64,000 bases of DNA, taken from NCBI GenBank assembly GCA_021773645.1, contig JAJFJU010000012.1, positions 1 through 64,000 of the forward strand, read 5' to 3'. Shown here one piece after another: positions 1 to 59,117 of this stretch. Position 1 is the stretch's first letter, and every line of letters begins with the position of its first letter. This stretch comes from Gammaproteobacteria bacterium (GTDB taxonomy: Bacteria > Pseudomonadota > Gammaproteobacteria > HK1). Below the pieces are notes generated by a model. The model worked only from the letters and a program-made list of their open reading frames with translations. It was not told the origin of the DNA and did not search any database. A program made the translations under genes and the position numbers.

Positions 1-111
1 CCCTCCAGGTCAGCGCACCACTGTCTGGAGGAGAAGTGGAACAACGCGCAACTAGGGCCTGCCTCCTGGATATATATCCAATAATTTGCTCATGTATGGA
101 GAAGTGAAACG

Positions 112-1656
112 ATGAGTGTAAATAAAGCAGATCTTACCGCAGGGCGTCCGAAGCTGATTCCTTATGGCGGCTATTACAGCTCCGTCATTCCGGATACCGA
201 GCCGCTGTTGACCGAGACGGGTCCCGGCACCGTGTTGGGCGATTACATGCGCCGCTTCTGGCATCCCGTGTGTCTGTCCGAAGAATTGACTGATACCCCC
301 CGTTACGTCGAGATCATGAGCGAAGAGCTAGTTGCCTTCCGTGATCAGAGCGGCAACGTTGGCGTGCTTCACGCTCATTGCTGCCATCGTGGCGCCTCGC
401 TGGAATACGGCTTGGTGAAAGAGCAGGGCATCATGTGCTGCTACCACGGTTGGGTTTTCGACGTAGACGGCAAGTGCATCGAGGTTCCCGCCGCCAAGGG
501 TGAAGAGGCCGAAGGTGAGAAATTTGCCGCGGGTGTCTGGCAGCCTGCCTACAAAGCCTTTGAGCGTAACGGCCTGGTGTTTGCCTATATGGGCCCACCG
601 GAAGAAGAGCCAGCTTTCCCTGAGTGGGAAGATGGTTTCACCGTTGCCGATGGCGACGAGCTAGTAGCCTTCAGTAACTATCAGGATTGTAACTGGTTGC
701 AGGTGCAGGATAACTCTGCTGATCAGTACCATCACATTCCTCTGCATACCACCGCCGTGGTACCTGGACACGAGCAGTCCACCACCTTTGGCGAGGCCGG
801 TGCGGCTCCTTATATGGTACGTCCTGACCTGCAGTTTTACCCGGTCAACGAAGGTCGTTCCATGGCATGGACTTCCTCACGACGCATTGATGACGGCAAG
901 ATCTTCATCCGTATCAATCAGCAGATGCTGCCTGATGTGAGCTTTCACTCCTATCTCTTCGAGACGGGTGAGGCGCGTAAAGTCTTTAGTCGTTTGCACA
1001 TGATTCGTTGGACTGTTCCAGTCAACGACACCGCGAGCAAGATGATTGGTTGGCGGGTGATTGGCCCGGGCATCGACCCGCGTGGTATCGGCGTAGCGCT
1101 CAAGCACCTCATCGGTTTTGAGACCATCGACTTCCTCGACGGCCAGGTTTCTCGTCGTCGTCCGGAGCTGCAGCGTTATTGGGATGCGAAGAAGGGCCCG
1201 GATGCCGAGAGAACTCCGTTCCCGGTTCCGCAGCCTGATCACCGTGCCCGTGAGTCCTACAAGGATGCACAGTGGGCGCCAGGCGATTACGAGGCGATCA
1301 TCTCGCAGCGTCCTATTGCTGTGCATTCCCTTGAGAACCCAATGAAGGCGGACGGTGGTGTTTACATGTTCCGCAAACTGTTACGTGATGCCATCAATGG
1401 AGATAATCCTAATGCGTCCGCAGCAGCCTTCAAGGAATGGTTCCAGAAGGATCCGAGCCCGAGTGTTTACTGTCAGGGCAACATCCTGATGATCCCGGGT
1501 GCGGACAATCTGCAAGACGAGGTGGCCCGTCGTCGTGATATCGCTGATAAGATCATTGAGCTGAATACTGAAAGCTTGGATAGCGGCCTTAAGGGCGCTG
1601 ATCGGGTGGCCTTCATCAATGAGAACTATGATGCGCTGGAGAAGAGCTACGATTAG
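112..1656 (+). CDS. Rieske non-heme iron oxygenase, alpha subunit (copy 1)
   Basis: A 514-residue terminal oxygenase of the phthalate-dioxygenase-like, aromatic-ring-hydroxylating type. Such enzymes use electrons from a separate reductase to oxygenate an aromatic or other organic substrate in the cytoplasm. The Rieske [2Fe-2S] ligands are visible as C90-x-H92 and C109-x2-H112. The mononuclear iron site follows as N194, D204, H207 and H212, the usual D-x2-H-x4-H arrangement. The start has GGAG about 11 bases upstream. It is followed by a strong terminator and then by a close paralogue. No reductase or ferredoxin gene lies nearby. The family is certain; the substrate is not, and demethylation or ring hydroxylation are both possible. 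Confidence 0.9.
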   Translation: MSVNKADLTAGRPKLIPYGGYYSSVIPDTEPLLTETGPGTVLGDYMRRFWHPVCLSEELTDTPRYVEIMSEELVAFRDQSGNVGVLHAHCCHRGASLEYGLVKEQGIMCCYHGWVFDVDGKCIEVPAAKGEEAEGEKFAAGVWQPAYKAFERNGLVFAYMGPPEEEPAFPEWEDGFTVADGDELVAFSNYQDCNWLQVQDNSADQYHHIPLHTTAVVPGHEQSTTFGEAGAAPYMVRPDLQFYPVNEGRSMAWTSSRRIDDGKIFIRINQQMLPDVSFHSYLFETGEARKVFSRLHMIRWTVPVNDTASKMIGWRVIGPGIDPRGIGVALKHLIGFETIDFLDGQVSRRRPELQRYWDAKKGPDAERTPFPVPQPDHRARESYKDAQWAPGDYEAIISQRPIAVHSLENPMKADGGVYMFRKLLRDAINGDNPNASAAAFKEWFQKDPSPSVYCQGNILMIPGADNLQDEVARRRDIADKIIELNTESLDSGLKGADRVAFINENYDALEKSYD

Positions 1657-2052
1657 TCTTCACTAGCTAAAAACTCAGTGTAGTTTTGGGGGCGCTTTAT
1701 GCGCCCCCTTTTTTTTGTGCGTCGAATATCTGCGCTTTATTTATCTCTCTTCCACTTAACGATTTAACTGATATTACCCCCCTTCCTTCGAGTATTGCCT
1801 CGCCCTTGTTCGCGAGTAACATTTTTATTAATACCAACAGTGCCTTAGCGTAGTAATCCGTGCCTACCCTAAAAACAGTCCAAACTCCAATAACCACATG
1901 TTTTATAAGTGTTTATTGTTTTCGATCCAAGTGGACAGCCACTCATGTAAATGGGAAGCTCTCGCAACTGGCCCCACGCCCTTTTAATTGGTATGGAGAC
2001 GGATGGGCCCCAATTCTGATATTTCAATCCGCTGAATCCTGGAGAGTGTTTA
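1657..2052. other. Intergenic region between the two Rieske genes
   Basis: This 396-base gap holds the terminator of copy 1 and, after it, about 336 bases of lower GC content with no credible gene. The sequence before copy 2 is not obviously like the 111 bases before copy 1. A GGAGAG ribosome site sits just before the second gene. No clear sigma-70 or sigma-54 promoter could be picked out by eye. Confidence 0.6.
1688..1716 (+). terminator. Rho-independent terminator after Rieske copy 1
   Basis: An 8-bp stem GGGGGCGC / GCGCCCCC with a TTTAT loop is followed by eight T residues. It lies 31 bases after the stop codon, so copy 1 is probably transcribed alone. Confidence 0.9.
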
Positions 2053-3579
2053 ATGAGTGTAAATAAGGCAGATTTAACCGCAGGGCGCCCTAAACTGATT
2101 CCCTATGGTGGCTATTACAGTTCGGTAATTCCCGAGCCTGACTCCCTACTGAGTGAGACTGGTCCTGGCACCCTTCTGGGTGACTATATGCGTCGCTTCT
2201 GGCACCCGGTCTGCATGTCGGAAGAGCTGACCGATACCCCCCGTTATTTGGAGATATTGGGCGAAGAGCTAGTTGCCTTCCGCGATCAGAGCGGCAATGT
2301 GGGCGTGCTCCATGCCCATTGCTGCCACCGTGGTGCCTCGTTGGAATACGGCCTGGTAAAGGAAAAGGGCATCATGTGCTGTTACCACGGCTGGACCTTT
2401 GATGTAGATGGCAAGTGCATCGAAGTACCTGCCGCCAAGGGTGAAGAAGCCGAGGGCGAGCGCTTAGCCGCCAGTGTCTGGCAACCCGCTTACAAGGCCT
2501 TTGAGCGCAATGGTTTGGTGTTTGCCTATATGGGTCCGCCGGAGGAAGAGCCCCCGTTCCCCGAATGGGAGGATGGTTTCACCCTGTCTGAGGGTGATGA
2601 GCTGGTGCCGTACAGCAACTATCAGGATTGTAACTGGATGCAGGTGCAGGATAACTCTGCTGACCAGTATCACCATATCCCACTGCACACCACCGCAGTG
2701 GTACCGGGGCACGAGCAGTCCACCACCTTTGGTGAGGCCGGTGCCGCATCTTATCTGATCCGCCCTGATCTACTGTTTTTCCCGGTGGATGAAGGTCGCT
2801 CTCTGGCCTGGACCTCGTCACGACGGATTGATGACGGTAAGATTTTTGTCCGCGTGAACCAGCAGGTATTGCCTAACATCAGCTGTCATTCTTACCTCTT
2901 TGAAACCGGTGAGGCGCGTAAGATCTTCAGCCGTATCCATATGCTGCGCTGGACCGTTCCAGTCAACGACACAGCTAGCAAAATGATCGGCTGGCGGATG
3001 GTGGGACCGACCATCGATCCACGGGGTATTGGTGAGGCGCTCAAGCATCTCATCGGCTTTGAGACCATCGACTTCCTCGATGGACAGGGTTCCCGTCGCC
3101 GTCCGGAGCTGGAGCGTTACTGGGAGAGCCGGAAAGAGAACACGACGTGGTTACAGCCGCAGGCAGATCACCGGGCACGTGAGTGTTATAAGGATGCTCA
3201 GTGGGCCCCCGGTGACTACGAGGCGATTGTTAGCCAACGTCCCATCTCCATACACGCGCTCGAAAACCCGATGAAGGCAGACGGTGGCGTATTCCTGTTT
3301 AGGAAACTGCTGCGTGATGCCATCAGAGGTGACAACCCACAGGCCAGTCCTGAGGCGTGGAAGGCAGTGCTGGAGAAAGACCCCACCCCCAATCTCTACT
3401 GCCAGGGCAACATCCTGATGGTTAAGGCAGGGGCAAACCTGCCGGAGGAGGTCGAGCGGCGTCGTGATCTCGCGCGCAAGGTGATTTCCACCACTACCGA
3501 GAGCAATAGCCTGAAAGGTGCCGAGCGGGTCCAGTTTATAGAGGACAAGTATGCGGAGCTGGAGAAGAGCTATAGCTGA
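2053..3579 (+). CDS. Rieske non-heme iron oxygenase, alpha subunit (copy 2)
   Basis: A 508-residue paralogue of the preceding gene. It is colinear over its whole length and clearly the product of tandem duplication. The first 26 residues are identical, and the Rieske ligands (C-x-H near 90, C-x2-H near 109) and the D-x2-H-x4-H iron site are conserved. Differences are scattered; the most obvious is a shorter linker around residues 357-367, with further changes at the C-terminus. It has its own ribosome site (GGAGAG) and its own terminator. As with copy 1, no electron-transfer partner is encoded beside it. The divergence suggests retention for different substrates or conditions, which is an inference. 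Confidence 0.9.
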   Translation: MSVNKADLTAGRPKLIPYGGYYSSVIPEPDSLLSETGPGTLLGDYMRRFWHPVCMSEELTDTPRYLEILGEELVAFRDQSGNVGVLHAHCCHRGASLEYGLVKEKGIMCCYHGWTFDVDGKCIEVPAAKGEEAEGERLAASVWQPAYKAFERNGLVFAYMGPPEEEPPFPEWEDGFTLSEGDELVPYSNYQDCNWMQVQDNSADQYHHIPLHTTAVVPGHEQSTTFGEAGAASYLIRPDLLFFPVDEGRSLAWTSSRRIDDGKIFVRVNQQVLPNISCHSYLFETGEARKIFSRIHMLRWTVPVNDTASKMIGWRMVGPTIDPRGIGEALKHLIGFETIDFLDGQGSRRRPELERYWESRKENTTWLQPQADHRARECYKDAQWAPGDYEAIVSQRPISIHALENPMKADGGVFLFRKLLRDAIRGDNPQASPEAWKAVLEKDPTPNLYCQGNILMVKAGANLPEEVERRRDLARKVISTTTESNSLKGAERVQFIEDKYAELEKSYS

Positions 3580-3606
3580 TTAGTGGCGTTAAGCGATGAG
3601 TGATCA

Positions 3607-3635
3607 GGGGGCACCTTAGGTGCCCCCTTTTTTTT
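3607..3635 (+). terminator. Rho-independent terminator after Rieske copy 2
   Basis: A perfect 9-bp stem GGGGGCACC / GGTGCCCCC with a TTA loop is followed by eight T residues. The stem sequence differs from that after copy 1, although the design is the same. Confidence 0.92.
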
Positions 3636-3747
3636 ACCCTTTGATTCCCAAATGGCGAGGGGCGGTTTTCTTAAAGTTTCTGTGCAGACTCCCGCTAACT
3701 ACTGGGTGAAGGTGTTTTTTTCCTTCCGTCTAGATTTCCAGTTCTAG

Positions 3748-3793
3748 CCAGGGATGGCCTTATGCCGCAAAGCATAGGATGTGTGGGAGCGGC
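3748..3793 (+). repeat. Dispersed palindromic repeat, locus A
   Basis: This copy has the family plan: a GGATGGCCTTATG-CGC-AAGC left part, a short variable hairpin core and a right part ending GGGAGCGGC. Closely similar copies lie at 45053-45100 and, in the opposite orientation, within 52431-52556. This copy sits just before the start codon of the PAS-GGDEF-like gene and is likely in its leader. Confidence 0.75.
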
Positions 3794-3815
3794 TTGATGA
3801 CAGGTGGTGAGCAGT

Positions 3816-4613
3816 ATGGATTTTGAGCAAAAGTTTCCAGTATTAACTGAAGGTGGTGCTGAGGCGCTGCTGCAGGGAATACCGCTCGGTGTTGCCGTCG
3901 AGAATGAGGCTGGTACCGTGTTGTGGGTTAATCAGGGATTAGAGGATCTGCTGGGTTGTGCGGGTGAATCTCTCTCCGGACAGCCTTTTGCGAACTGGCC
4001 CCTAAAGGGGCTACGTCCGGGCAGTGATGGCAGCGAACGCTTCCGTGTAACCGGTAACGGCGAGAGCCATAAGCTGGTGTGTCGGCAGACGGAGATTACG
4101 GATGTGGATGGGCAGGCCCTGACACTTCGTTGCTTCAGCCCTGAGACGACGGCAAAGATATCTTTCAACTCCGCCGCAGGGGTTGTGCCTAGTGGTGGTA
4201 TCGATGCCGATACCGGCACTCTGGATCGCCTCTCTCTTAGTCAGGCAATTCGCTCTGAGGTGTCCCGGAGCCGCCGTTATCTCAATCCCTTTTCGGTGCT
4301 ACTCATGGTGGTTCAGTCCGAACATGAGGAGGCAATGCGGGTCGCTGCACGGATACTTAAAGAACAGACCCGTTGGGCGGATATACTCGGGCGCTGGGAT
4401 GAGCAGGCGTTTCTACTCATCCTGCCCGAGACCGATGGCGATTCGGTTACTGCTTTAATTGCCAAGATTAGTGCTGGCGTTGAGGCGCTAGCGAGCACCG
4501 ACAACGGCGAGACACCGACCCTGGGATTGCAGTTTGGTATAGCAAGTTGGCAGCGTGGTGACGATGCCAACTTGCTTATGGAGCGGGCTCGGGGTGCGCT
4601 TACCTCAGACTAA
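3816..4613 (+). CDS. PAS domain protein with degenerate GGDEF domain
   Basis: A soluble protein of about 265 residues. The N-terminal half (roughly 10-120) looks like a PAS sensor domain. The C-terminal half is a GGDEF-type fold recognisable from the stretch ADILGRW...FLLILPETD. The catalytic signature GG(D/E)EF is replaced by DEQAF, so it should not make cyclic di-GMP; it may bind nucleotides or proteins instead. I chose the ATG at 3816 because AGGTGG lies eight bases before it. An in-frame GTG at 3804 is the alternative. It follows the Rieske pair on the same strand but behind a terminator, so a functional link is only suggested. Confidence 0.75.
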   Translation: MDFEQKFPVLTEGGAEALLQGIPLGVAVENEAGTVLWVNQGLEDLLGCAGESLSGQPFANWPLKGLRPGSDGSERFRVTGNGESHKLVCRQTEITDVDGQALTLRCFSPETTAKISFNSAAGVVPSGGIDADTGTLDRLSLSQAIRSEVSRSRRYLNPFSVLLMVVQSEHEEAMRVAARILKEQTRWADILGRWDEQAFLLILPETDGDSVTALIAKISAGVEALASTDNGETPTLGLQFGIASWQRGDDANLLMERARGALTSD

Positions 4614-4625
4614 TATCCTTCTTCG

Positions 4626-5057
4626 TTAGCTCTCAGAGTCCACGATTTCATAGTCATGGGTGATTTTGGCACTTTTTCCAAGCATCAACGTTGCCGAGCA
4701 ATATTTCTCTGCTGAGAGCTTAATAGCCCGTTCCACCTGTGCCACTTTTAGGCCGTGGCCAGTGAGGCGATAATGCAGACGAATCTCGGTAAATACTTTA
4801 GGTGCAGTTTCCGCACGATCGGCTTCGATTTCTACGCTGCAATCCTGTACCGGCTGACGTGCTTTTTTCAGCATGCTAAGCACGTCGAAGGCGGTACAAC
4901 CACCGGCCCCTAGCAGCAACATTTCCATGGGTCGAATGCCCAGATTTTTCCCGCCCATCTCTGGAGGGCCGTCCATGATCACGGCGTGGCCGCTGCCGGA
5001 TTGCCCCATAAAACAGACATCTTCAACCCACTTAACCCGAACTTTCACGTATCTCAT
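4626..5057 (-). CDS. OsmC family protein, YhfA type
   Basis: A 143-residue OsmC-like thiol protein. Members reduce organic hydroperoxides or handle reactive sulfur and electrophiles. The two expected cysteines are C54 (in GAGGCTAFD) and C120 (in EKYCSATLML). The N-terminal beta region and the alpha-helical core match the family length. It is divergent from crp, as yhfA is in E. coli, which supports the YhfA subgroup rather than classical OsmC or Ohr. It ends 12 bases from the PAS gene, convergently. The substrate is unknown. Confidence 0.85.
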   Translation of the reverse strand: MRYVKVRVKWVEDVCFMGQSGSGHAVIMDGPPEMGGKNLGIRPMEMLLLGAGGCTAFDVLSMLKKARQPVQDCSVEIEADRAETAPKVFTEIRLHYRLTGHGLKVAQVERAIKLSAEKYCSATLMLGKSAKITHDYEIVDSES

Positions 5058-5068
5058 CTCCTTGGGAT

Positions 5069-5101
5069 GGTGTGGGGTTCGAAATATCGAAGCCCATCAC
5101 C
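5069..5101. promoter_or_regulatory. Imperfect inverted repeat between osmC-like gene and crp
   Basis: The arms GGTG-TGGGGTTCGA and TCGAAGCCCATCACC flank an AATA centre, pairing over about 14 positions with a perfect TTCGA/TCGAA core. It lies 12 bases upstream of the osmC-like start and 72 bases before crp. It could be an operator for either gene or an RNA hairpin. It does not match the TGTGA-N6-TCACA Crp consensus. Confidence 0.4.
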
Positions 5102-5173
5102 TAAACTAGCGACGCTGTATGGCCCCTCGATAACGGGGTGCCAGGAAGCCGATCATACTAGGGAGTAGAAGCG

Positions 5174-5815
5174 ATGACGATTCTGCAACGGACCGATGTA
5201 CCTTCCCCTGCGGGACTCGAACATTTTCTTGAGCACTGTCATCGCCACAGCTATCCGGCCAAGAGCGTGATTATCAATGCCGGTGATATCTCTCATGAGC
5301 TTTATTATTTGGTCAAAGGCTCGGTATCTGTGCTGATGGAAGATGAGGATGGGCATGAGGTGGTGCTGGCTTATCTTAATGATGGTGATTTTTTTGGCGA
5401 AATAGGGATGTTTGACGAACAGCACGAGCGCAGTGCCTGGGTGCGAACCAGAACCCAGTGCGAGGTGGCGCAGATGAGTTATGACCGGCTGCGGAACATG
5501 GCCACCGAGTTTCCAGAAGTACTGTTTTCCATGCTGTCACAGTTGGCCCTAAGACTACGCAACACCAGCCGCAAGGTAGGCGATTTGGTATTCATGGACG
5601 TCTCAGGGCGCGTGGCGCGTACGCTGCTTGATCTATGCAAGCAGCCCGATGCCATGACCCATCCAGATGGTATGCAGATCCGCATTACCCGTCAGGAACT
5701 CGGGCGCATTGCTGGTTGTTCCCGCGAGATGGTGGGGCGAGTGCTTAAGGATATGGAGGAGCAGAACCTTATTACCGCCTCCGGTAAGACCATGGTGATT
5801 TTCGGGACGCGTTAG
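5174..5815 (+). CDS. crp: cAMP receptor protein (Crp/Vfr)
   Basis: A 213-residue global transcription regulator. The cyclic-nucleotide domain keeps the cAMP contacts G75, E76, R86 and S87, and the C-helix pair T131-S132. The winged helix-turn-helix keeps R184, E185 and R189 in [12 protein letters not shown], so it should recognise the standard TGTGA-N6-TCACA half-sites. Sequence agreement with E. coli Crp is high through the whole C-terminal half, including [14 protein letters not shown]. It is divergent from the OsmC-like gene, which is a conserved arrangement. The start is supported by a GGGAG site. A possible cAMP source is the class III cyclase at 60768. Confidence 0.95.
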
Positions 5816-5849
5816 GTGATGGTGTGAGTGGTTGTTCCTAACAGGGCAG

Positions 5850-5915
5850 GTAGGGCGGACCGTGTCCGCCGTTTGGTGACCGAGCCATTATTGTGCGGCG
5901 CACATGGTGCGCCCT
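5850..5915. repeat. REP-type repeat pair (BIME-like) at the 3' end of trpC
   Basis: One unit is GTAG followed by a perfect hairpin GGCGGAC-CGT-GTCCGCC (5850-5870). A second, inverted unit is GGCGCACATGGTGCGCC then CTAT (5897-5915). The GTAG head plus palindrome is the plan of REPs mobilised by RAYT (TnpA-REP) transposases. Related units occur at 23637-23739. The trpC stop codon lies inside the inverted unit. Confidence 0.8.
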
Positions 5916-6747
5916 ATATCCATCTGCTCCACGGCATAACCACATCCCTGTGGAAAAGCTCTTTGAGGCGGGCACCCGGGTCTTCGGCGCGCATGAAGGC
6001 CTCACCCACCAGAAAAGAATTTACTCCATGCTCGCGCATTAGAGCGATATCCTCGTGGCTATGGATGCCGCTCTCGGTGACTACTAGACGTGCGGAATCG
6101 ATGTCGGATAACAGCTCGATGGTGGTATTCAGGCTGGTTTCGAATGTGTGGAGATTGCGGTTGTTGATGCCGATGAGCTCGGTATTAAGTGGCAGTGCGC
6201 GCATTAATTCGGCGTGGTCATGAACCTCTACCAGTACGTCCATACCGAGTTCATCGGCTAGTGCCGCCAGTGTGGCAAGGGCGGAATCCTCCAGCGCGGA
6301 GACAATGAGCAGGATGCAATCGGCCCCCATGGCACGGGCCTCATAGACCTGGTAGGGGTCAATGATGAAATCCTTGCGTAGCACCGGCAAGGTACAGGCC
6401 GCCCGCGCCGCTATCAGATAGTCCTCACTTCCCTGAAAGAAATCCCGATCCGTGAGCACCGAAAGAGCGGTGGCACCTCCTTGTTCGTAGGAGCGGGCGA
6501 TATCTCCTGGGCGAAAATCCGGGCGCAGCAAGCCTTTGCTGGGAGAGGCCTTTTTGAGCTCACTGATAACCGCCGATTCTCCCGCCTCAATGCGTGTCCG
6601 CAAGGCACTGGTAAAGGGACGGGGCGAGTCTGCAGCAAGTGCTCGCCGCTGCATTTCTGGGAGATCGATGTTCTGCTGGCGGGTACTGATTTCCTCCTGC
6701 TTACGGCGGAGAATTTTGCGCAGGATATCCGGGGGAGAGATGGCCAT
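5914..6747 (-). CDS. trpC: Indole-3-glycerol-phosphate synthase
   Basis: A 277-residue TIM-barrel enzyme that closes the indole ring in tryptophan biosynthesis (CdRP to indole-3-glycerol phosphate). The family signature [12 protein letters not shown] is at 61-72, followed by [15 protein letters not shown] and [10 protein letters not shown]. It is a stand-alone enzyme; there is no fused TrpF. It is last in the rpe-gph-trpEGDC operon, eight bases after trpD. Its stop codon TAG is supplied by the edge of a REP repeat, so the extreme C-terminus (after VVMPWSRW) may have been altered by repeat insertion. Confidence 0.96.
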
Positions 6748-14029: not shown

Positions 14030-16165
14030 ATGAAGCGCAAATCAATGGGCCGCAAGCTGAGCGGAAAAGCATCTAGTCATGCCAACGCCCAGCGTGTGGA
14101 TGAGTTGTATCAACAGGCAGTTCATGCCCATCAGGCGGGTAAGCTGGCGCGGGCAGAGCGGTTCTATCAGAAGGTGTTGAAGGCGAATCCAAAGCATCCG
14201 GAAAGCCTGCAGTATCTGGGGCTTATCGCACAGCAGGCGGGGCATCTGGAGCGGGCTACACGCTATCTGCGCCATGCGCTCGATGTTAGTCCGCAGGATC
14301 CGGTGGCACAGAATAATCTTGCTAATCTTTTGCGCGAGAACGGGAAGTTTAGTGAGGCCATTGAACGCTATCGCGTTGCTCTGAAACTGGCTCCAGATTA
14401 CGTCAATGCTTGCTTCAATCTCGCGATGTGCCTAAAGAAAACCAAGGATTTTGACGGCGCTATGAAGGCCCTGAAGCAGGTGACGGACTTGGCCCCTGGG
14501 GATAGCGGTGCCTGGATAGAGCTGGGGGCCTGCCAGTTGCGTCAGGCCGAGGAGCAGGCTGCCGAACACAGCTTTAGCCATGCGTTGGATATTCAGCCTA
14601 AGGCAGATACCTGGTTGCATATTGCCGAGGTGCTGGCAATAAACGGGTTCAAGGAGAAGGCGATCACGGCAGCCTCCCAAGCCTTTGGGATTGGCGCTGG
14701 GGACTGGGCGTTCTACTTCGCGCTGGGCAATCTACAGATGCAACTTGGGGATAGGGCCGGGGCGGTAGTGGCCTATGAAAAGGCGCTGTTGGTATGTCCT
14801 GAATCTGTTGCCGAACTGCAACAGCTCGCACACGTGCTCTCACAACTTAATCGCAGCCGGGCCTTGGTAGCCGTCTGGCGTCGTCTGGTTCTGCTTGAGC
14901 CTGAAAATGCAGATAGCCATGTAGCGCTTGGGCATGCCTTGGACCAGCATGGTCAGGTGGCAGAGGCGATTACTGCCTTTGAGCATGTGTTGGCCATTCA
15001 ACCTCGGCATGCACAGGCCTATTCTAGTTTGGGCATGGTGCTTTCCCAGACGGGGGAGCACGAAAGGGCGGCAATTAGCTTTCGCAAGGCATTAAAGCTG
15101 GATCCCTCATTGGCCGAGGCGGGACTGGGGCTGGCGTCATGCCGTCGCTTCAGTGCTGAGGATCGGGAAGATATCGGCTCCCTCGAGGCCCTGGCTGTTA
15201 ACACTCAGGTACCTAGGGAAGTGCAGTGCTCTGTGCAATTTGCACTGGGCAAGATCCATGATGACCTGGGAGCTTATGCTCAGGCCTTTGGGTATTATAA
15301 AGTGGCGAATCGCCAAATGGGGCAGATCCATAAATTTGACCCCGAGGCCCACAAAGATTGGGTTTCCCAGCACATCTATACCTTCGATGAGAATTTCTTT
15401 AGTCAGCGGGCGGACTGGGGGCAACCTAGCGCTTTACCAATACTGATTGTGGGTATGCCACGTTCGGGCACCAGTCTGATGGAGCAGATTATAGCCAGTC
15501 ACCCTCAGGTGCATGGTGGGGGGGAAATGGCTACCTTGGGTGAGGCGGTTAAGGAGGTTTCCGGGGAGGGGACTTTAGCGCTCGGTTTTCACCAGGGAGT
15601 GCTGTCACTGGATCAGGTGGCAACAGCTGATCTTGCCCGGCGATACCTCAAGGCCTTAACGAATGTTGCCGGAGGCAAATCCAGGCTCACGGACAAATTG
15701 CCCGGAAACTTTCTCAATCTTGGGTTGGCAGCGTTGCTGGTGCCCGGGATCAAGGTAATCCATTGTCGGCGTCATCCACTGGATGTTTGTCTCTCCATCT
15801 ATTTTCAGTCGCTTGGTTTTGGAAATGATTACGCCTGTGATCTGCGCCATATTGCAGCCTATTACCGGGAATATGTTCGCCTCATGACGCACTGGCGGCG
15901 GGTGCTGCCTGGCGAGTTCTTGGAGCTTGATTACGAGGTTTTGGTGGCCGATCTGGACGCTGGAAGTAAGCAACTCATTGCCCATTGTGGACTGCCTTGG
16001 GATGAGCGTTGCCTGCGTTTTTACGAAAATAAGCGGGTGGTGCAGACTCTCAGCCAATGGCAGGTGCGCCAGCCGGTCTATACGCGTTCCGTGGAGCGCT
16101 GGAAAAATTACGAAGGCTTTCTGGATGAACTTAAGCATGAGCTGGGTGAGTTATTAACGACGTGA
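14030..16165 (+). CDS. TPR repeat protein with C-terminal sulfotransferase domain
   Basis: A 711-residue protein. After a basic N-terminus, TPR repeats run from about residue 20 to 370. A sulfotransferase domain fills about 465-711. The PAPS-binding loop reads IVGMPRSGTSLMEQ near 472. A second conserved block, IHCRRHPLDVCLSIYF, matches the 3'-phosphate-binding region. It should transfer sulfate from PAPS to a carbohydrate, lipid or peptide acceptor. The TPRs may bind the acceptor. The start has GGAAG eight bases upstream. It precedes a second TPR protein with a methyltransferase domain after only 80 bases. Confidence 0.85.
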   Translation: MKRKSMGRKLSGKASSHANAQRVDELYQQAVHAHQAGKLARAERFYQKVLKANPKHPESLQYLGLIAQQAGHLERATRYLRHALDVSPQDPVAQNNLANLLRENGKFSEAIERYRVALKLAPDYVNACFNLAMCLKKTKDFDGAMKALKQVTDLAPGDSGAWIELGACQLRQAEEQAAEHSFSHALDIQPKADTWLHIAEVLAINGFKEKAITAASQAFGIGAGDWAFYFALGNLQMQLGDRAGAVVAYEKALLVCPESVAELQQLAHVLSQLNRSRALVAVWRRLVLLEPENADSHVALGHALDQHGQVAEAITAFEHVLAIQPRHAQAYSSLGMVLSQTGEHERAAISFRKALKLDPSLAEAGLGLASCRRFSAEDREDIGSLEALAVNTQVPREVQCSVQFALGKIHDDLGAYAQAFGYYKVANRQMGQIHKFDPEAHKDWVSQHIYTFDENFFSQRADWGQPSALPILIVGMPRSGTSLMEQIIASHPQVHGGGEMATLGEAVKEVSGEGTLALGFHQGVLSLDQVATADLARRYLKALTNVAGGKSRLTDKLPGNFLNLGLAALLVPGIKVIHCRRHPLDVCLSIYFQSLGFGNDYACDLRHIAAYYREYVRLMTHWRRVLPGEFLELDYEVLVADLDAGSKQLIAHCGLPWDERCLRFYENKRVVQTLSQWQVRQPVYTRSVERWKNYEGFLDELKHELGELLTT

Positions 16166-16245
16166 AAAAATGTAGTTAATTTTTTGTAGTTTCTGAAATC
16201 CTTACGATACGCTAATCAATTCCCACCTAACGGAAAAAATCTGCC

Positions 16246-18261
16246 TTGGCAAAGAAAATTACACGTCAACATCGGAAGCAGCGCACGCGCCTGAAAAATC
16301 ATCTCAGTGCAGATCTGAAGGCGGCCAAGGCCAATATTGATGCCCAGCAGTTTGGTGCGGCTATTCGCTTGGTAGAGGGCGTGCTTGAACAATCACCCAA
16401 GTGCTCGCCCGCTCATCAGCTAGCCGCTACCCTCGCTTTTTGTCACGGCAATTTCGAATTGGCCCGCTCTCATCTTGAAGTAGCCATTAAGAACGACAAA
16501 AAAAATACTGGTTACCTTTTTGACATTGCTTTGATGTATTCGCGTCTTGGAATGGCCGAGGAGGAAATCAGGGCCTATCGGAAAATAATCCGGCTGAAAC
16601 CCCGTTCCGCCATAGCCTACGCCAACTTGGGTTTCATCTACCGGAGGCGAGGTGATTTTGATGCCGCTTTGCTGGCTTTTGGCAGGGCAGTTGAAATTGA
16701 TCCTGAACACGTGGGAGCCCAGACCGGATGGATCCATCTACTCGGTCGAATACGAACTGAGGAGTTTGATTCAAAAATTGCAGATGCCCTAGTGAAGGCC
16801 TTCGAATCTCCCTACACCCACCACCCCAGCCTTGCGCCCGCCACCGCTTCCATGCTGAACCTGAAATATGGATTCGCCCAATACGATCCTGAAATAAATG
16901 GATTACCGCAGGCTAATGATCCTTTGCTTGCGGGCTATCTCAGTAAATGTGTGAACATTGAACTTGGACTGGAGTCCGGGCTCACCCGACTTCGGAAATT
17001 CCTGTTATTCGGTGACTGGGTCGATGAGCATAACAGCGAGACGAAATTGGCGGTCTTGCTGGCGAGACAGGGGTTCATCAATGAGTTTGTATTCCACGTC
17101 ACGCCGGTGGAGAAGGAACGGATCTACAACCTGCAGCAAGAACTGGAGGATATGCTTTCCGCAGACAACATAGTTATCGGCGAGATGGAGGATAGGCTGC
17201 TTCGCTTTGCGATGTACGAGTCATTTAATCGTTTGCAAGGAGCAAGCAGACTCGCTGAGCTTGACGATAAGCAGTTGGGCCCCAATTTGGTCGATCTGGT
17301 GACCTTAACGCTTCGAGACGCACTTGAGGAGGAAGCGATTTGGGACTCAATGCCTGCCTTAAAACGGATAACCGATAGCACCTCCCAGGCCGTACAACAG
17401 CTCTATGAGGAGAATCCCTGCCCACGCTGGTTGCATCTGCCTCGTCGCATGGAACGACTTCCAGCTGCCTGGCTACGTGAGATGTTCCCGGGTTTTTCTC
17501 CTCCATCCTTTCTGCGACCGGAATCCAATATTCTTATTGCGGGTTGCGGGACCGGACAGCAGGCTATTTCCGTAGCACTTGAATTTCCCCGGGCTGATAT
17601 CACTGCCATCGATATTTCTCGGGCTTCGCTCGCCTACGCAGCCAGAATGGCCAAAAAACTGGATATTGGGAATATTCGGTTTCTCCACGCGGACATTCTT
17701 GATGCGGGCCTGCTCGATCAATCCTTCGACATGATCCAGTCCGTTGGGGTACTGCATCATATGCGTACACCGTTGGATGGCTGGCGGGTGCTCACCGGGT
17801 TGTTGCGGGAAGGCGGCGTTTTCAAGGCGGGGCTCTATGCCGAACGTGGACGCCAGGGTGTGGTGAAGTGCCGTGAGATGATCGCTCGCGAAGGGATAGG
17901 CTCCAGTCATGAGGAAATTGTGGATTTTCGTTATCGTCTGATGAATGAATCCGTGGATCGAAAGTTATTTAGTTTCATGGAGCGAATCGATTTCTTCACC
18001 ACCAGCATGTGTCGCGACCTGCTGTTTCACGTGCAGGAGATTCGCTATACGCCCAAGCAACTCAAGGATGAACTGGATGCGGTCGGGCTAGAATTTATTG
18101 GTTTTGAGGGGCTGGAGGAGACCGGTATGGTGGATGTTTATCAAAAGGCTTTTCCCCATGAACCGGACATGAGTAACCTTGATAATTGGGAGCGGCTGGA
18201 GATGGATCAGGAGGATCCGCCGGAGGGTTATATGTTCTGGTGCCATAAGCCCGGGGAATAG
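16246..18261 (+). CDS. TPR repeat protein with C-terminal SAM-dependent methyltransferase domain
   Basis: A protein of about 671 residues, apparently starting at TTG (16246). The N-terminus is strongly basic (KKITRQHRKQRTR). TPR repeats cover about 25-165. A middle region of unclear fold follows, then YEENPCPRWLHLP near 385-397, a block typical of TPR-methyltransferase fusions. The class I methyltransferase domain begins at about 425 with ILIAGCGTGQQ (motif I) and DITAIDIS. It shares a basic, TPR-led plan with the sulfotransferase gene just upstream, so the two may modify the same acceptor (inference). Confidence 0.8.
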   Translation: MAKKITRQHRKQRTRLKNHLSADLKAAKANIDAQQFGAAIRLVEGVLEQSPKCSPAHQLAATLAFCHGNFELARSHLEVAIKNDKKNTGYLFDIALMYSRLGMAEEEIRAYRKIIRLKPRSAIAYANLGFIYRRRGDFDAALLAFGRAVEIDPEHVGAQTGWIHLLGRIRTEEFDSKIADALVKAFESPYTHHPSLAPATASMLNLKYGFAQYDPEINGLPQANDPLLAGYLSKCVNIELGLESGLTRLRKFLLFGDWVDEHNSETKLAVLLARQGFINEFVFHVTPVEKERIYNLQQELEDMLSADNIVIGEMEDRLLRFAMYESFNRLQGASRLAELDDKQLGPNLVDLVTLTLRDALEEEAIWDSMPALKRITDSTSQAVQQLYEENPCPRWLHLPRRMERLPAAWLREMFPGFSPPSFLRPESNILIAGCGTGQQAISVALEFPRADITAIDISRASLAYAARMAKKLDIGNIRFLHADILDAGLLDQSFDMIQSVGVLHHMRTPLDGWRVLTGLLREGGVFKAGLYAERGRQGVVKCREMIAREGIGSSHEEIVDFRYRLMNESVDRKLFSFMERIDFFTTSMCRDLLFHVQEIRYTPKQLKDELDAVGLEFIGFEGLEETGMVDVYQKAFPHEPDMSNLDNWERLEMDQEDPPEGYMFWCHKPGE

Positions 18262-18274
18262 TGGAGCCTGGATG

Positions 18275-18682
18275 CTACTTTTGCAGCCAGTTCGCTACAT
18301 TGAGTCCAGGTACACGGGAGAACTCACGCGTGTTGTTGGTGACGAGCACACAATTAAGTGTCAGAGCGTGGGCAGCGATGAGCATATCGTTAGGCCCTAT
18401 CACCGTGCCCTGTTGTTCCAGATAGCTTCGGAGTTCTCCATAGCGGCGGTCGGCTGGTTTCTCCAAAGCCAATACGCTGATGACGGAAAGAATGGCCTCC
18501 AGTTGGGTGCTCAGGCGTCTGGAGCCGCGTTTGCAGGCCCCAAAGCGTAACTCGCTTGCTACCACGATACTGGTGCAAATGCTGTTTTCGCCCTCCAGTA
18601 AAATTTTCCTGGTAATCGCGCCTTGAGGATGACGCACCAAATCCGAGAGAATATTGGTGTCCAATAGATAGCGGGGGTTCAA
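18275..18682 (-). CDS. VapC-like PIN-domain toxin
   Basis: A 135-residue PIN-domain ribonuclease. Metal-binding acidic residues are visible at D8 (LLDTN), E44 (ASELRFG) and D99 (GPNDMLIAAHA). The FitB/VapC group, which cleaves specific RNAs, is the best match. Translation starts at TTG directly after the antitoxin stop (TAATTG), a coupled arrangement that would keep toxin output low. It ends 13 bases from the TPR-methyltransferase gene, convergently. Confidence 0.9.
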   Translation of the reverse strand: MNPRYLLDTNILSDLVRHPQGAITRKILLEGENSICTSIVVASELRFGACKRGSRRLSTQLEAILSVISVLALEKPADRRYGELRSYLEQQGTVIGPNDMLIAAHALTLNCVLVTNNTREFSRVPGLNVANWLQK

Positions 18683-21622: not shown

Positions 21623-21955
21623 TTAGAGCTGAAGCCAGCGACTTAGCGCTTTGTCTAACTGAGCTTGCTTGTCTTTGCTCACGACGCCGATATGCGCCCC
21701 AATATTTGTTCGGCGGATGCTAAACATTTTGTCAATCATTAGCTGGGATGGTTTATTCAGGCCATTGCTATCGCTGGCCTCTAGATCTAGCCGGAAAAGC
21801 GGTGCTGGCATACATTGCGAGGTGATAGGGCAGACAGTGATGCTGTGGTGGGTCGGGTTGAAGAGGTCCGATTGAATGACCACCGCGGGACGTGCCTTGC
21901 TTGAATAATCCCCCTTGGCACGCACCAGCACGACATAACCTCGCCTTATTTCCAT
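21623..21955 (-). CDS. MazF/PemK-family toxin
   Basis: A 110-residue endoribonuclease-type toxin. The ATG at 21955 begins MEIRRGYVVLV, the normal MazF start. Family marks are KARPAVVIQSD (the basic, Arg-bearing strand of the active site) and ITVCPITSQ, then PSQLMIDKMFSIRR. MazF enzymes cut single-stranded RNA at short motifs. It follows the ribbon-helix-helix antitoxin with a four-base gap. The longer reading to 22078 overlaps the antitoxin and is not used. Confidence 0.9.
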   Translation of the reverse strand: MEIRRGYVVLVRAKGDYSSKARPAVVIQSDLFNPTHHSITVCPITSQCMPAPLFRLDLEASDSNGLNKPSQLMIDKMFSIRRTNIGAHIGVVSKDKQAQLDKALSRWLQL

Positions 21956-21959
21956 TGTT

Positions 21960-22190
21960 TCAGTGCCATCCTTGCTGGTCCGCGGCATCCTCAATGAAGG
22001 TTTCAAGGCCTTGATCGTCATCACGTTCCGCAACCAACAGCGATTGCCGACGTGCTTCGGCGATAAGATCATTTCCATTTAGAAAACGGCGTATTGCTTC
22101 CCGCACCAGTTCGCTTTTTGAGCGCCCAGTTTGCCTAGCTACCGTAGCGAGCTGGCGATCCAGTTCTGGTTCAAGTCGAATACCAAGCAT
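21960..22190 (-). CDS. Ribbon-helix-helix antitoxin
   Basis: A 76-residue antitoxin. Starting at ATG 22190 it reads LGIRLEPELDRQLATVA (the DNA-binding ribbon and first helix) and then GRSKSELVREAIRRFL (second helix), the CopG/RHH fold. The acidic tail (ERDDDQGLETFIEDAADQQ) is expected to neutralise the toxin encoded just after it. Self-repression of the pair is expected from family precedent. The module sits between an intact aminotransferase gene and a remnant of a second one. Confidence 0.87.
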   Translation of the reverse strand: MLGIRLEPELDRQLATVARQTGRSKSELVREAIRRFLNGNDLIAEARRQSLLVAERDDDQGLETFIEDAADQQGWH

Positions 22191-22260
22191 CTTTGGGCAC
22201 CTTTGTTTTACGCGTTTTACAAGTGTAGCAGAAAACGGCGTGCCTGCAGGTTGTCTCTGT

Positions 22261-23589
22261 TTATCGATATCCGATGCCGGTATCCAGTGCGGAGTCCAGT
22301 TTTTCAACGATCTCTTTGATTTGGGATTCGTCGATGAGAAAGGGTGGGGCTAACAGTATGTGATCACCATGTTGGCCATCGATAGTGCCGCCCATGGGAT
22401 AGAGCATCAGCCCGTGGGCCATAGCCTCTTTTTTTATTGCTCGATGGAGTTGAAGGATGGGGTCAAAGGGTGCTTTGGTTTCACGGTTGGCCACCAGTTC
22501 CAGGCCGAGAAACAGTCCACGGCCGCGAATATCGCCAACATGGGGGTGGTCGTGGAAGCTTTCATTCAAAGCGGCAGTGAGTTGCTGACCCCGAAGTTGT
22601 ACTTGCTCCAGTAATCCTTCTTTCTCGATGGTTTCCAGTACCGCCAGGGAGGCGGCGCAGGCAGTTGCGTGGCCCATGTAGGTATGGCCGTGCTGAAAGA
22701 AACCGCTGCCGTTGCGCACGGTGTTGTAGATTTCATTGTTAACCAGCAGTGCGCCGATGGGTTGGTAGCCGGCGCCGAGTCCCTTGGCGATGGTGATTAG
22801 GTCGGGAACGATGCCTTCCTGTTCGCAAGCGAACAGGCTGCCGGTGCGCCCCATGCCGCACATCACCTCATCCAGTATCAGCAAGATGCCGTGACGATCA
22901 CAGATCTCACGGATACGTTTGAAATAGCCAGGCACAGCGGGTACCGCGCCAGCAGTGGCACCCACGACGGGTTCGGCGATAAAGCCGATGACAGTTTCTG
23001 CGCCCAGGGCTTCAATTTTGGATTCCAGTTCGTTGGCCACACGCAGGCCATAGGCGATTTCACTTTCATCGGGGAGTTGGTCACGGTAGGCGTAGCAGGG
23101 TGCAATATGGTGGCTTTCTACTAATAGCGGTTGAAAGGCCTCACGCCGCCAGGCGTTGCCGCCGACTGCCAAGGCTCCCAGGGTGTTGCCGTGATAGCTC
23201 TGGTGGCGGGCAATGAAGTGGCGGCGTTGTGGCTCCCCGCGTTCGAGAAAATACTGCCGTGCCAGCTTAAGCGCTGCCTCTACCGCCTCGGAACCGCCGC
23301 TGACGAGATAACTGCGTTCAATGCCGGGTGGGGCAAGCGCGGCGAGCTTATCCCCTAACGCCTCCGCTACCTCAGTAGTGAAAAAGGAAGAATGTACATA
23401 GGCGAGTTGTTCCGCCTGTTGATGTATCGCTTCAAGCACCGCTGGATGGCCGTAACCGAGGCAGCAGACCGCGGCACCACCACAGGCATCCAGGTAGCGT
23501 TTTCCTGTCTGGTCAAAGACGTAGGGACCGTCACCGCCCGTGGCAATGGGAAGTTGGCTGTGGCAATGGCGGTGGAAGAGATGGTTCAC
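22261..23589 (-). CDS. Class III PLP-dependent aminotransferase
   Basis: A 442-residue aminotransferase. The Schiff-base lysine is K269 in DLITIAKGLGAGYQ, and the pyridine-binding aspartate is D240 in ILLILDEVMCG. GGSEAVEAALKLAR binds the cofactor phosphate. The group includes omega-amino-acid:pyruvate and 4-aminobutyrate aminotransferases; the exact substrate cannot be assigned. It lies 146 bases downstream of the TRAP-transporter stress-protein gene, with REP repeats between, and may share that transcript. A broken copy of its 3' end lies beyond the MazF module. Confidence 0.88.
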   Translation of the reverse strand: MNHLFHRHCHSQLPIATGGDGPYVFDQTGKRYLDACGGAAVCCLGYGHPAVLEAIHQQAEQLAYVHSSFFTTEVAEALGDKLAALAPPGIERSYLVSGGSEAVEAALKLARQYFLERGEPQRRHFIARHQSYHGNTLGALAVGGNAWRREAFQPLLVESHHIAPCYAYRDQLPDESEIAYGLRVANELESKIEALGAETVIGFIAEPVVGATAGAVPAVPGYFKRIREICDRHGILLILDEVMCGMGRTGSLFACEQEGIVPDLITIAKGLGAGYQPIGALLVNNEIYNTVRNGSGFFQHGHTYMGHATACAASLAVLETIEKEGLLEQVQLRGQQLTAALNESFHDHPHVGDIRGRGLFLGLELVANRETKAPFDPILQLHRAIKKEAMAHGLMLYPMGGTIDGQHGDHILLAPPFLIDESQIKEIVEKLDSALDTGIGYR

Positions 23590-23636: not shown

Positions 23637-23739
23637 GGCGGCCATGGGCCGCCCTACACGGCTTGGTACGTAGGGTGGGCCGTGCCCACCGGAATTTTTG
23701 CCACCATCATCGGTACAAGGCGCATATGGTGCGCCCTAG
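23637..23739. repeat. Cluster of three REP-type repeats
   Basis: Three GTAG-type units occur. 23637-23657 is inverted (GGCGGCCATGGGCCGCC then CTAC). 23670-23690 is direct (GTAG then GGTGGGC-CGT-GCCCACC). 23719-23739 is inverted (GGCGCATATGGTGCGCC then CTAG). The last supplies the stop codon of the universal stress protein gene. The units match those at the end of trpC. No RAYT transposase gene is in the window. Confidence 0.85.
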
Positions 23740-24191
23740 GTGCCTTTCTCGCGCTCGGGGCAATGCCTTAGCACCAGTACCGAGCAGTGGGCATGGCGAA
23801 CTACCTTGGAGGTAGTGGTTCCCAACAGCCACTTTTCCATAGAGGGATGATCCTGCCCAGGGATGATGATGAGGTCCACGTCGTGTTTGCGGGACTCGGC
23901 AAGGATTTCCTCGTAAGCCGTACCCTGACGTAGCACTGGGACTACCGGCAGTCCTTCGGGAATGTGCTCTTGTATATAGCTGTCGAGTTGTGCCTTGGCT
24001 GCTGCACGGGCCTTTTTTTCTGCATCTTTGGGGAAATAAGTTGCCACCAGCGGCATGTTAAAACCTGGTAGCACATAGATAAGGTAAAGGGTGGCGCCCC
24101 ATTTGCGTACTTCTTCTACCACCTCGTCCAGGGCGTCACGGCAGAGGCCACCTTCAGGTACGTCGATAGGATAGAGAACTTTTTTGAACAT
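23736..24191 (-). CDS. Universal stress protein associated with a TRAP transporter
   Basis: A 151-residue UspA-fold protein. The N-terminus KKVLYPIDVPEGG and the end KVVRHAHCSVLVLRH are typical. The nucleotide loop G-x2-G-x9-G is altered: GQDHPSMEKWLLGTTTS lacks the second Gly, so ATP binding may be weak. It is encoded 23 bases after the TRAP permease, like TeaD beside TeaABC in Halomonas, where the stress protein restrains the transporter. Its stop codon comes from a REP element, and the last residues (EREKGT) abut that repeat. Confidence 0.88.
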   Translation of the reverse strand: MFKKVLYPIDVPEGGLCRDALDEVVEEVRKWGATLYLIYVLPGFNMPLVATYFPKDAEKKARAAAKAQLDSYIQEHIPEGLPVVPVLRQGTAYEEILAESRKHDVDLIIIPGQDHPSMEKWLLGTTTSKVVRHAHCSVLVLRHCPEREKGT

Positions 24192-24214
24192 GGTGTATTC
24201 CTTGTTTGTAGCGG

Positions 24215-26803: not shown

Positions 26804-26834
26804 CGGCGCTTAACTCCATGGTATGCGGGCAAGG

Positions 26835-27803
26835 CTAGCGAATGTGGTGCTGCTGGAAATAGTGTTGAGCCCCTTCGTGTAAGGGTGCGCTCAGCGTATC
26901 TTTTTCCATGGTGCTGGCATCCAGTTGTCTGAAGGCGGGATGCATTTTGCGCAGGCGCCGCAGATTAGAAAAAGTTGCAGCGACCAAGGCTTCTGCAGTA
27001 CCTGTGTTTATCTCAGACGAGGTGATTAGGGTTGCGCGTGTTCCAAAGCTATGGACGGCTCGGGAGGCTGGGCCGTAGGTGCCTTGTGGAATCTCTGTGG
27101 CCGTGAGCCATGGGTGGGCTTCAAGTAGGCCGTTGATAGCGGAACCGCTGACGTTGACCAGATGCGCATCGCAAAGCCGGAGTGTTTTCATTACCCCTCG
27201 ATCGGGGTGAGCGCGCACGTAAGTGGCGACCTGTATCTTTTTGTGGCACAGGGAGAGAGATTGCTGTCCGGCGGGCAGCTCTTCAGCCAGTGAGAAATTC
27301 TTTTTGTTCCAGCCGCGGGCGGTCATCAGCATATTCATAGTGGCGCGTTCCAGCGAACCAGAATTGCCAATATTTACCCGGCCATTACGGAGATCGTCGA
27401 GTTCTGTTATGCCGGTATCCCGCGTTGCCACCAAGGTGAGGCTGGTGGGATGAGCGGAAAATAGCGCACGAAGATTATCGAAATTGCCATCGGTATAGCG
27501 AAATGGGCCGCTTTGGTGCTGGGCATGAAACTGCCACTCGGATGAAACGATGGCGAACTCCAGTGCACCATCCCGAACTGCGCTGAGGTTGAATAAGGGG
27601 CCGGTGGTGGGTATTGCACGACACTTCAGGCCACTTTTTTGAAGGTTGACCAGTCGGCAGATGGCGCGGCCGAGGGCGTGGTTGGTACCGGCCGCATGGC
27701 CCGTACCGATAAGGATCTCTTCGGCTGCCGGAACAGCAATCGGGACGAAAAGTGCCAGTGTCAGAACCATGGCACGAAATAGGGGGATACGCATCCAAGT
27801 CAC
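26835..27803 (-). CDS. TAXI-family TRAP solute-binding protein, divergent copy
   Basis: A 322-residue periplasmic protein with a signal peptide ending near VPAAEE. It is paralogous to the next upstream gene over its whole length (shared blocks LRALFSAH, RVNIGNSGS and LSAPLHEGAQHYFQQ). The family ligand motif TGG-x2-G-x-YY-P is changed here to GTGHAAGTNHALG, so the aromatic pair is lost. It lies 31 bases before the permease gene. It may bind a different ligand or none, acting as a regulator; both are inferences. Confidence 0.88.
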   Translation of the reverse strand: MTWMRIPLFRAMVLTLALFVPIAVPAAEEILIGTGHAAGTNHALGRAICRLVNLQKSGLKCRAIPTTGPLFNLSAVRDGALEFAIVSSEWQFHAQHQSGPFRYTDGNFDNLRALFSAHPTSLTLVATRDTGITELDDLRNGRVNIGNSGSLERATMNMLMTARGWNKKNFSLAEELPAGQQSLSLCHKKIQVATYVRAHPDRGVMKTLRLCDAHLVNVSGSAINGLLEAHPWLTATEIPQGTYGPASRAVHSFGTRATLITSSEINTGTAEALVAATFSNLRRLRKMHPAFRQLDASTMEKDTLSAPLHEGAQHYFQQHHIR

Positions 27804-27894
27804 TCCTTGTATCGCTATTGCGGAAGGAGGAAATCAGTGGTCCGGGAGACAGCCGTAGCGGCGTTTCTCCCGGACCAGCTGAATGCAGGTTTAC

Positions 27895-59094: not shown

Positions 59095-59117
59095 CGCACG
59101 AGCTTTGCGCCTATAGC

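Follow-up and report, generated by a model that had tools for sequence, protein, structure and literature searches.

Near the left end of a 64,000-nucleotide stretch of gammaproteobacterial DNA (lineage HK1; assembly GCA_021773645.1, contig JAJFJU010000012.1, positions 1 to 64,000; hereafter the window) lie two tandem genes for paralogous Rieske oxygenases, A and B, which very probably belong to a two-component system with two parallel oxygenases and one distant reductase. The reductase is encoded on another contig of the same genome, and the genes around it and around related oxygenases incline us, on balance, to the view that the set serves phosphonate utilisation in the window genus. That A and B, sharing this distant reductase, are the terminal oxygenases that oxidise an imported organophosphonate is the reading we favour, if tentatively. 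The window genome is referred to below as G000 and its congeners OFTM98 and OFTM50 as G001 and G002; the features in question are the following.

112..1656, plus strand: Rieske oxygenase A, intact; 514 amino acids (aa), Pfam Rieske domain, ligand columns, orthologues in G001 and G002
1688..1716, plus strand: intrinsic terminator of A; hairpin 1688-1708, T run up to 1716; same hairpin after A in G001 and G002
1929..1936, plus strand: putative promoter-type box AAGTGGAC, 5' of B; form AA[GT]TGGAC, common to A of G001 and G002 and the reductase promoter
2053..3579, plus strand: Rieske oxygenase B, intact; 508 aa, Pfam Rieske domain, ligand columns
3606..3635, plus strand: intrinsic terminator of B; hairpin 3606-3628, T run up to 3635

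The two genes are read from one strand with a spacing of 396 bases and encode proteins that are 80% identical with 6 gap columns, the genes themselves being 77% identical. The Rieske domain, the sole Pfam domain found, scored above its cut-off in both (E = 1.1e-19 for A and 2e-20 for B), and all NCBIfam matches fell far under theirs, the top ones reaching 51-53 bits against 600. In a 14-sequence alignment, the Rieske motif C-x-H...C-x2-H is present and invariant (C90, H92, C109 and H112, A numbering), and the 2-His-1-carboxylate iron site and bridging aspartate are likewise present (D204, H207 and H212 invariant, D392 nearly so), with ligand roles assigned from the family pattern by alignment. 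An AlphaFold model of A, made with 14 sequences, was moderate (pLDDT 68.6, pTM 0.72), the regions 205-238, 322-353 and 368-413, iron ligands among them, falling under pLDDT 50. The A terminator has a stem of 8 pairs, all G-C, followed by T8, and that of B a stem of 10 pairs followed by a T run; in G001 and G002, B is also trailed by a G+C hairpin and a T run, with different stem sequences. Positions 1-6000 hold six terminator-like sites against a shuffle mean of 5.2, that is, no excess. On these points the original prediction, which had described tandem oxygenases retaining all Rieske and iron ligands, each with its own terminator and a different stem, was borne out, D392 being the one ligand short of full invariance.

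The window starts at base 1 of contig C4 (651,628 bases, in a genome of 2.49 Mb that is 99.92% complete), so the sequence upstream of A is limited to 111 bases; as two contigs of G001 also start inside oxygenase copies, the tandem might be suspected of being an assembly artefact. This we find hardly credible and have rejected, since A and B diverge by 23% at the nucleotide level, the contig extends over 651 kb, and G002 carries the same tandem with both flanks. Nor does a reductase gene lie just left of A in G001 or G002, where the left flank encodes an ATP-binding cassette (ABC) ATPase, recognised by Pfam, and, as judged by eye, two pilin-like proteins and a cyclase-like protein. The 64-kb window yielded no third Rieske protein, and a genome search returned two A/B-type oxygenase copies in G000.

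The duplication appears to be old. G001 has an orthologue of A (94%) and two 3' fragments at contig ends; G002 has an orthologue of A (93%), an adjacent B that is 76% identical to window A, and a third copy, C, elsewhere (79%). In a 27-row oxygenase tree, with long branches flagged and three fragments of 30 rows omitted (L033b, B1f and C1f), the A genes of the three congeners form a single 100/100 clade, the order of B0, B2 and C2 being unsure; this placement indicates that the A/B duplication predates the split of the genus. A dN/dS of 0.06-0.11 across ten pairs of full-length genes, both orthologues and paralogues, and of 0.04-0.06 in two fragment pairs, with a dS of 1.56 between A and B, indicates purifying selection on both copies. 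These values, the clade of A orthologues and the ligands retained in both copies speak against the idea that B (or A) is superfluous or in decay and has persisted by chance or through a dosage effect, which we consider quite improbable even though the two are similar in sequence and hold the same position across the genus. The predicted tandem retention is thus best described as that of old paralogues kept by selection, and a divided substrate range between A and B is possible.

Exchange among the copies may also have occurred. The fragment at the copy-C site of G001 (L043 6-677) is B-like, being 93% identical to G002 B, 82% to G002 C and 95% to the fragment at the B site (L044 6-677), which points to conversion or replacement between oxygenase loci in this genome. 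OFTM194 has a tandem oxygenase pair of its own (L033 2405-4952), 88% identical over the available part; these copies are nearer to each other than to any congener copy, which may reflect repeated tandem doubling or conversion keeping them alike.

Beyond the window genus, the clade includes OFTM194 (L033), SI073 (L035), G016 with two oxygenases, G123 and G612. It is rare: at E <= 1e-90 it was found in 4 of 369 genomes of a class sample, 3 of 398 of a phylum sample and 3 of 368 of an overlapping class sample, which brought no new members. A search of 72,556 plasmid records at 1e-30 gave 23 matches, of which three, all from Caballeronia, have 58-60% identity; the SBC2 and Variovorax records are unannotated around the oxygenase. 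In the 27-row tree the 14-row clade received 100/100 and its sister row (100/98, long branch) was MPE_RS22205, which is encoded with MPE_RS22200 on plasmid RPME01 of Methylibium petroleiphilum PM1; we take these two proteins to be MdpJ and MdpK. A close MdpJ membership was not supported, identity being 41-43% and the window clade reaching 100/100 without MdpJ.

The electron donor, which the original prediction placed elsewhere in the genome, has a strong candidate from a genome search for FNR-type reductases. PF00175 (NAD_binding_1) occurs at E <= 0.01 in two places in the whole of G000, on contigs C28 and C13. The C13 match, which carries a PyrK-type iron-sulfur domain, was rejected as donor; the C28 gene (G000:C28:284443-285459) encodes a 339-aa PDR/VanB-type reductase that has both an NAD-binding and a Fer2 domain. 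It has no tblastn match inside the window at 1e-5, and no reductase was found there (Fer2, PF00111, was not searched genome-wide). The original claim that no reductase or ferredoxin lies near A and B within the window thus stands as regards the reductase. A 4Fe-4S ferredoxin-like (RnfB-like) open reading frame at 59043-59588 is the only ferredoxin-like gene noticed in the window by eye. Elsewhere in G000, a 106-aa Rieske ferredoxin is encoded at C4:367244, adjoining SufU/SufS-like genes (by eye).

Co-occurrence and gene order link the C28 reductase to the oxygenases. Among 13 chosen genomes, a C28-type reductase was found at E <= 1e-20 in six, exactly those with a clade oxygenase (identity to C28: G001 95%, G002 92%, G016 50%, G612 48% and G123 44%, the last with five further matches); the remaining seven comprise six with only 35-44% oxygenases and one without any at 1e-30. 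The reductase gene lies directly 3' of the oxygenase gene in G123, G612, L035, Caballeronia M1242 and PM1. In a 14-row reductase tree, which omits the Caballeronia SBC2 and OFTM194 reductases, the oxygenase-adjacent reductases, MdpK and that of G016 cluster with the C28 kind at a support of 88/92, short of the starred level, and five other PDR-like reductases of G123 stand apart, two of them on very long branches. From this co-occurrence and the adjacency in relatives we infer that the PDR/VanB-type reductase of G000 is the cognate partner and that electrons would pass from it to A and B.

The promoters offer a further link. The 5' leaders of A and B are dissimilar overall, as had been predicted, apart from one short common box: a conserved AA[GT]TGGAC block precedes A in G001 and G002, B in the window and in G002, and the reductase gene in three genomes, at -144 from the start codon for A, -124 and -120 for B, and -221 to -218 for the reductase. 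A of G000 was scanned with its 111 upstream bases only. The shared block is suggestive of joint control of A, B and the reductase; because it recurs at these promoters, the earlier proposal of separate expression units, upheld by the individual terminators, is weakened with respect to fully separate regulation. In 154 kb of G000 the box occurs six times on both strands, and it lies within 300 bases upstream of 3 of the 129 mechanically found open reading frames, namely B, the reductase and a lone PhnD-like gene whose locus had been retrieved on account of its PhnD-type gene. On inspection by eye, a sigma-54 interpretation of the TTGGAC box was abandoned, since the -12 GC is not conserved.

Gene context in relatives suggests a phosphonate substrate. 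Genes of phosphonate (phn) families were found at five of the six oxygenase or reductase loci fetched from three other lineages, several of them with scores below cut-off; the sixth locus is L033. In SI073 (L035), the order is two phn-type LysR genes (296.1 and 284.4 bits), a UROD/B12 methyltransferase, the oxygenase, the reductase, an HD protein (Phn-HD, 165.6 bits against a cut-off of 214.6; TmpB, 161.1 against 300), a NUDIX protein and a hydrolase, followed by phn_DUF6 (168.1 against 288), accompanied by another LysR, and then by a CobW-like gene and one for a PhnA-like hydrolase. In G016, genes for PhnC, PhnD, PhnE and PhnE lie directly upstream of the oxygenase on contig C216 (PhnC and the tested PhnE above cut-off, PhnD below); the second oxygenase, on C237, is accompanied by UROD/B12 and RACo-type genes, with a Phn-HD protein about 30 kb away and an EamA protein 55% identical to the phn_DUF6 protein of G000; and the reductase on C7 lies with homologues of both LysR genes, PhnA (76%), EamA and a 2-hydroxyacid dehydrogenase. 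Contig C363 of OFTM194 carries the end of a phosphonatase-like HAD gene (64%), PhnC, PhnD, PhnE, PhnE, a phn-type LysR, the reductase and a NUDIX gene, with PhnC at 45% (tblastn), PhnD below cut-off and one PhnE above it.

In the window genome, a phn-type LysR stands beside the reductase, and the PhnDCEE and HAD genes are unlinked on other contigs. The best NCBIfam match of this LysR is phn_lysR (298.5 bits, cut-off 341.1; next family, 173.7), and the LysR proteins beside the congener reductases score 294.1 and 288.3 bits with the same model. After the LysR gene the C28 locus continues with a HAD type II hydrolase and a NUDIX protein, both above cut-off. PhnD-C-E lie at the end of contig C12, and the start of C7 carries a second PhnE, a major facilitator superfamily (MFS) gene, a 2-hydroxyacid dehydrogenase, a transketolase-like gene, a phosphonatase-like HAD (118.6 against 220 bits; 96% identical to its G002 counterpart), PhoU-like and PiT-like genes (called by eye, with weak family scores), a LysR and phn_DUF6 (137.3 against 288.2 bits).

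Several observations weigh against phosphonate as the substrate. Of the 19 queries of a phosphonate set run against the window by tblastn, the oxygenase alone matched, and no phn-family neighbours were seen by eye at copy C of G002. Searches of G000, G001 and G002 returned no Phn-HD at 1e-10 and no PhnJ at 0.001 (PhnW was not searched). Family scores lie under the curated cut-offs for PhnA (179.7 against 407.6 bits) and PhnD (189.5 against 261.1), as they do for the phn_lysR, Phn-HD, phosphonatase and phn_DUF6 matches given above. All six genomes searched have PhnD-type genes, but so do 7 of 14 controls, and PhnD presence alone therefore says little. In G612, PhnJ and Phn-HD lie on contigs other than that of the oxygenase. 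Many of the genomes are metagenome assemblies, and that of G016 has 8% contamination. As to the box, its matches at B and the reductase are circular, these promoters and that of A having served to define it, and only the lone-PhnD match is independent; this match in G000 was discarded as support, being not conserved in G001, and no box was found in the 400 bases before the PhnD-C-E cluster of G000.

The association also failed to hold across the whole oxygenase clade. At four loci of a Caballeronia-type branch (G123, G612 and two Caballeronia plasmids) the phosphonate set gave only generic matches (ABC ATPase 27-28%, LysR 27-34%, transketolase 36%), the neighbours being class II aldolase, GntR-type, MFS and amidohydrolase genes. 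On the 4.95-kb contig L033, the OFTM194 oxygenases adjoin not phn genes but a class II aldolase gene and a sugar-acid-kinase-type gene (OtnC- and OtnK-like). The neighbours in the Caballeronia-type branch, and MdpJ as the closest row outside the clade, would fit an enzyme of the same two-component architecture acting on an ordinary organic substrate, be it a tertiary alcohol, a sugar acid or another compound, with the phn genes nearby by chance or for other steps. MdpJ itself is reportedly linked to tertiary and secondary alcohols. We nevertheless hold this explanation less likely, as members of phosphonate families turn up repeatedly, at five loci of three other lineages (L035; L045; L046 with L097; L077; L116), and as in the window genus the LysR next to the reductase comes closest to the phn type.

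A further candidate substrate is suggested by the UROD and B12-binding corrinoid proteins encoded close to the L035 and L046 oxygenases, by the RACo-type activator in L046, and by the genes for FrmA, FrmB and a TRAP transporter that lie no more than about 10 kb from the C28 reductase. These would suit an N-demethylase of glycine-betaine-type compounds that resembles GbcAB and works beside corrinoid demethylases. GbcAB, CntAB and VanAB are two-component Rieske demethylases and C-N cleaving oxygenases, and they share with the present system the combination of an oxygenase and an FNR/[2Fe-2S] reductase. However, A and B reached 26.7 and 28.0 bits with the GbcA model (NCBIfam cut-off 670) and the C28 reductase 94.3 with that of GbcB (500), so neither component can be assigned to these families, and a betaine substrate leaves the PhnCDEE, Phn-HD and PhnA-like neighbours unexplained; we therefore judge this possibility improbable. 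The aromatic, terpenoid and betaine-like substrates named in the original prediction are displaced by phosphonate on grounds of gene context, with a methylated, betaine-like phosphonate as a possible substrate.

Under the phosphonate reading, the C28 FNR/[2Fe-2S] reductase would relay electrons from NADH to A or B, where the Rieske cluster and the mononuclear iron receive them. The oxygenase would then oxidise an organophosphonate brought in from outside, perhaps a 2-aminoethylphosphonate with N-alkyl groups. Oxidation beside the nitrogen would lead to demethylation, or to C-N cleavage yielding a phosphonoaldehyde, from which the phosphonatase-like HAD hydrolase could then free phosphate. That the attack falls next to the nitrogen of an N-alkylated aminophosphonate is a guess, favoured because it suits the corrinoid proteins of L035 and G016, the FrmA and FrmB genes within 10 kb of the reductase, and a HAD enzyme acting on phosphonoaldehyde. 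MtgC-type corrinoid proteins are known in glycine betaine demethylation, according to passages of PMC10574752 and PMC12478193. In L035, hydroxylation before the TmpB-like enzyme would yield glycine betaine. The LysR beside the reductase would control the gene set, which in G000 would be spread over three loci or more: the tandem of A and B; the reductase, HAD and NUDIX genes with the phn-type LysR; and the PhnDCEE genes together with that for the phosphonatase-like HAD, near the PiT-like transporter, a LysR and phn_DUF6.

Aerobic phosphonate routes, as outlined in the relevant passages of PMC10574752, have as their entry step a transaminase and hydrolase pair, an oxidation of the TmpA/PhnY type, or C-P lyase. 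The TmpA/TmpB and PhnY/PhnZ pathways treated in the same passages resemble the L035 arrangement, where a TmpB/PhnZ-like HD protein follows the oxygenase and reductase, and more loosely that of G016 C237, with the HD protein about 30 kb from the oxygenase; in contrast, no HD protein was found in the window genus at 1e-10. A difference of enzyme type also separates these systems. The known hydroxylating partner, TmpA or PhnY, is of the 2-oxoglutarate type and not a Rieske protein. With greater hesitation, we propose that the Rieske clade initiates oxidative phosphonate catabolism, replacing the TmpA/PhnY hydroxylases where an HD oxygenase comes next and, where there is none, feeding a phosphonatase-like HAD hydrolase, and that in a single genus its genes now form a dispersed regulon in which one reductase serves several oxygenase paralogues.

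In the open-licence literature, judged by title and start of abstract, no report of a Rieske enzyme in phosphonate breakdown was found among the matches listed, and the word "Rieske" is absent from each of the phosphonate-catabolism papers among them. PMC12478193, PMC9999580 and PMC5987411, among others, contain both "Rieske" and phosphonate terms; PMC10119275 contains both words as well, and its Rieske passage concerns a guanidine cluster. Were the proposal correct, it would add a new enzyme class to the reduced-phosphorus cycle and define a gene set to seek in metagenomes, and a three-protein in vitro test would be feasible. The split system also illustrates how several oxygenase copies might draw on one remote reductase.

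Other known systems are more distant or differently arranged. MdpJ and MdpK resemble the present proteins (oxygenase 41-43% and reductase 47% identical), and MdpK lies directly 3' of MdpJ at a locus (L058) judged from its annotation alone; these are adjacent plasmid genes, whereas the window genus keeps two or three oxygenase copies apart from one reductase. The window clade also has a loop (approximately A 352-382) that is missing from MdpJ and the other outgroup rows shown. By sequence and fold, the closest structures are the phthalate/isophthalate dioxygenases of Comamonas testosteroni KF1 (7v25, 7v28, 7fjl and 9ina) and an oxygenase of Cupriavidus metallidurans (7fhr), with only 22-24% identity to A in a Foldseek comparison made with the moderate AlphaFold model.

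Several neighbouring genes deserve mention in their own right. On C28, 7-10 kb from the reductase (L073 8470-11390), lie genes for an ArsI/CadI-type VOC protein, an ArsR-type regulator, FrmA and FrmB, all over a cut-off. Upstream of copy C, contig C13 of G002 (L034 691-9536) carries AioA (983 bits, above cut-off) and a GFA-domain gene, together with AioB-like, aquaporin-like and TetR-like genes (by eye). AioAB beside copy C, taken with the ArsI/CadI-type protein near the reductase, might hint at an arsenic role, a speculative reading that we do not adopt. At G000:C4:181047 (L055 3-3152), an arsenite-oxidase-like large subunit (243.7 against 359 bits, from a partial open reading frame) and a small subunit above cut-off adjoin a di-haem cytochrome c peroxidase-like gene (by eye), an arrangement that recalls the iodate reductase cluster idrABP1P2 as described in a passage of PMC8692401. 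Within the window, inspection by eye revealed a tandem of two large TPR-repeat-like proteins (14030-18261), a VapC-like PIN protein (18275-18682), a MazF-like protein with a ribbon-helix-helix partner (21623-22307), and a TAXI-type TRAP transporter made up of a fused permease and a pair of binding proteins, along with a UspA-like gene (23736-28872).

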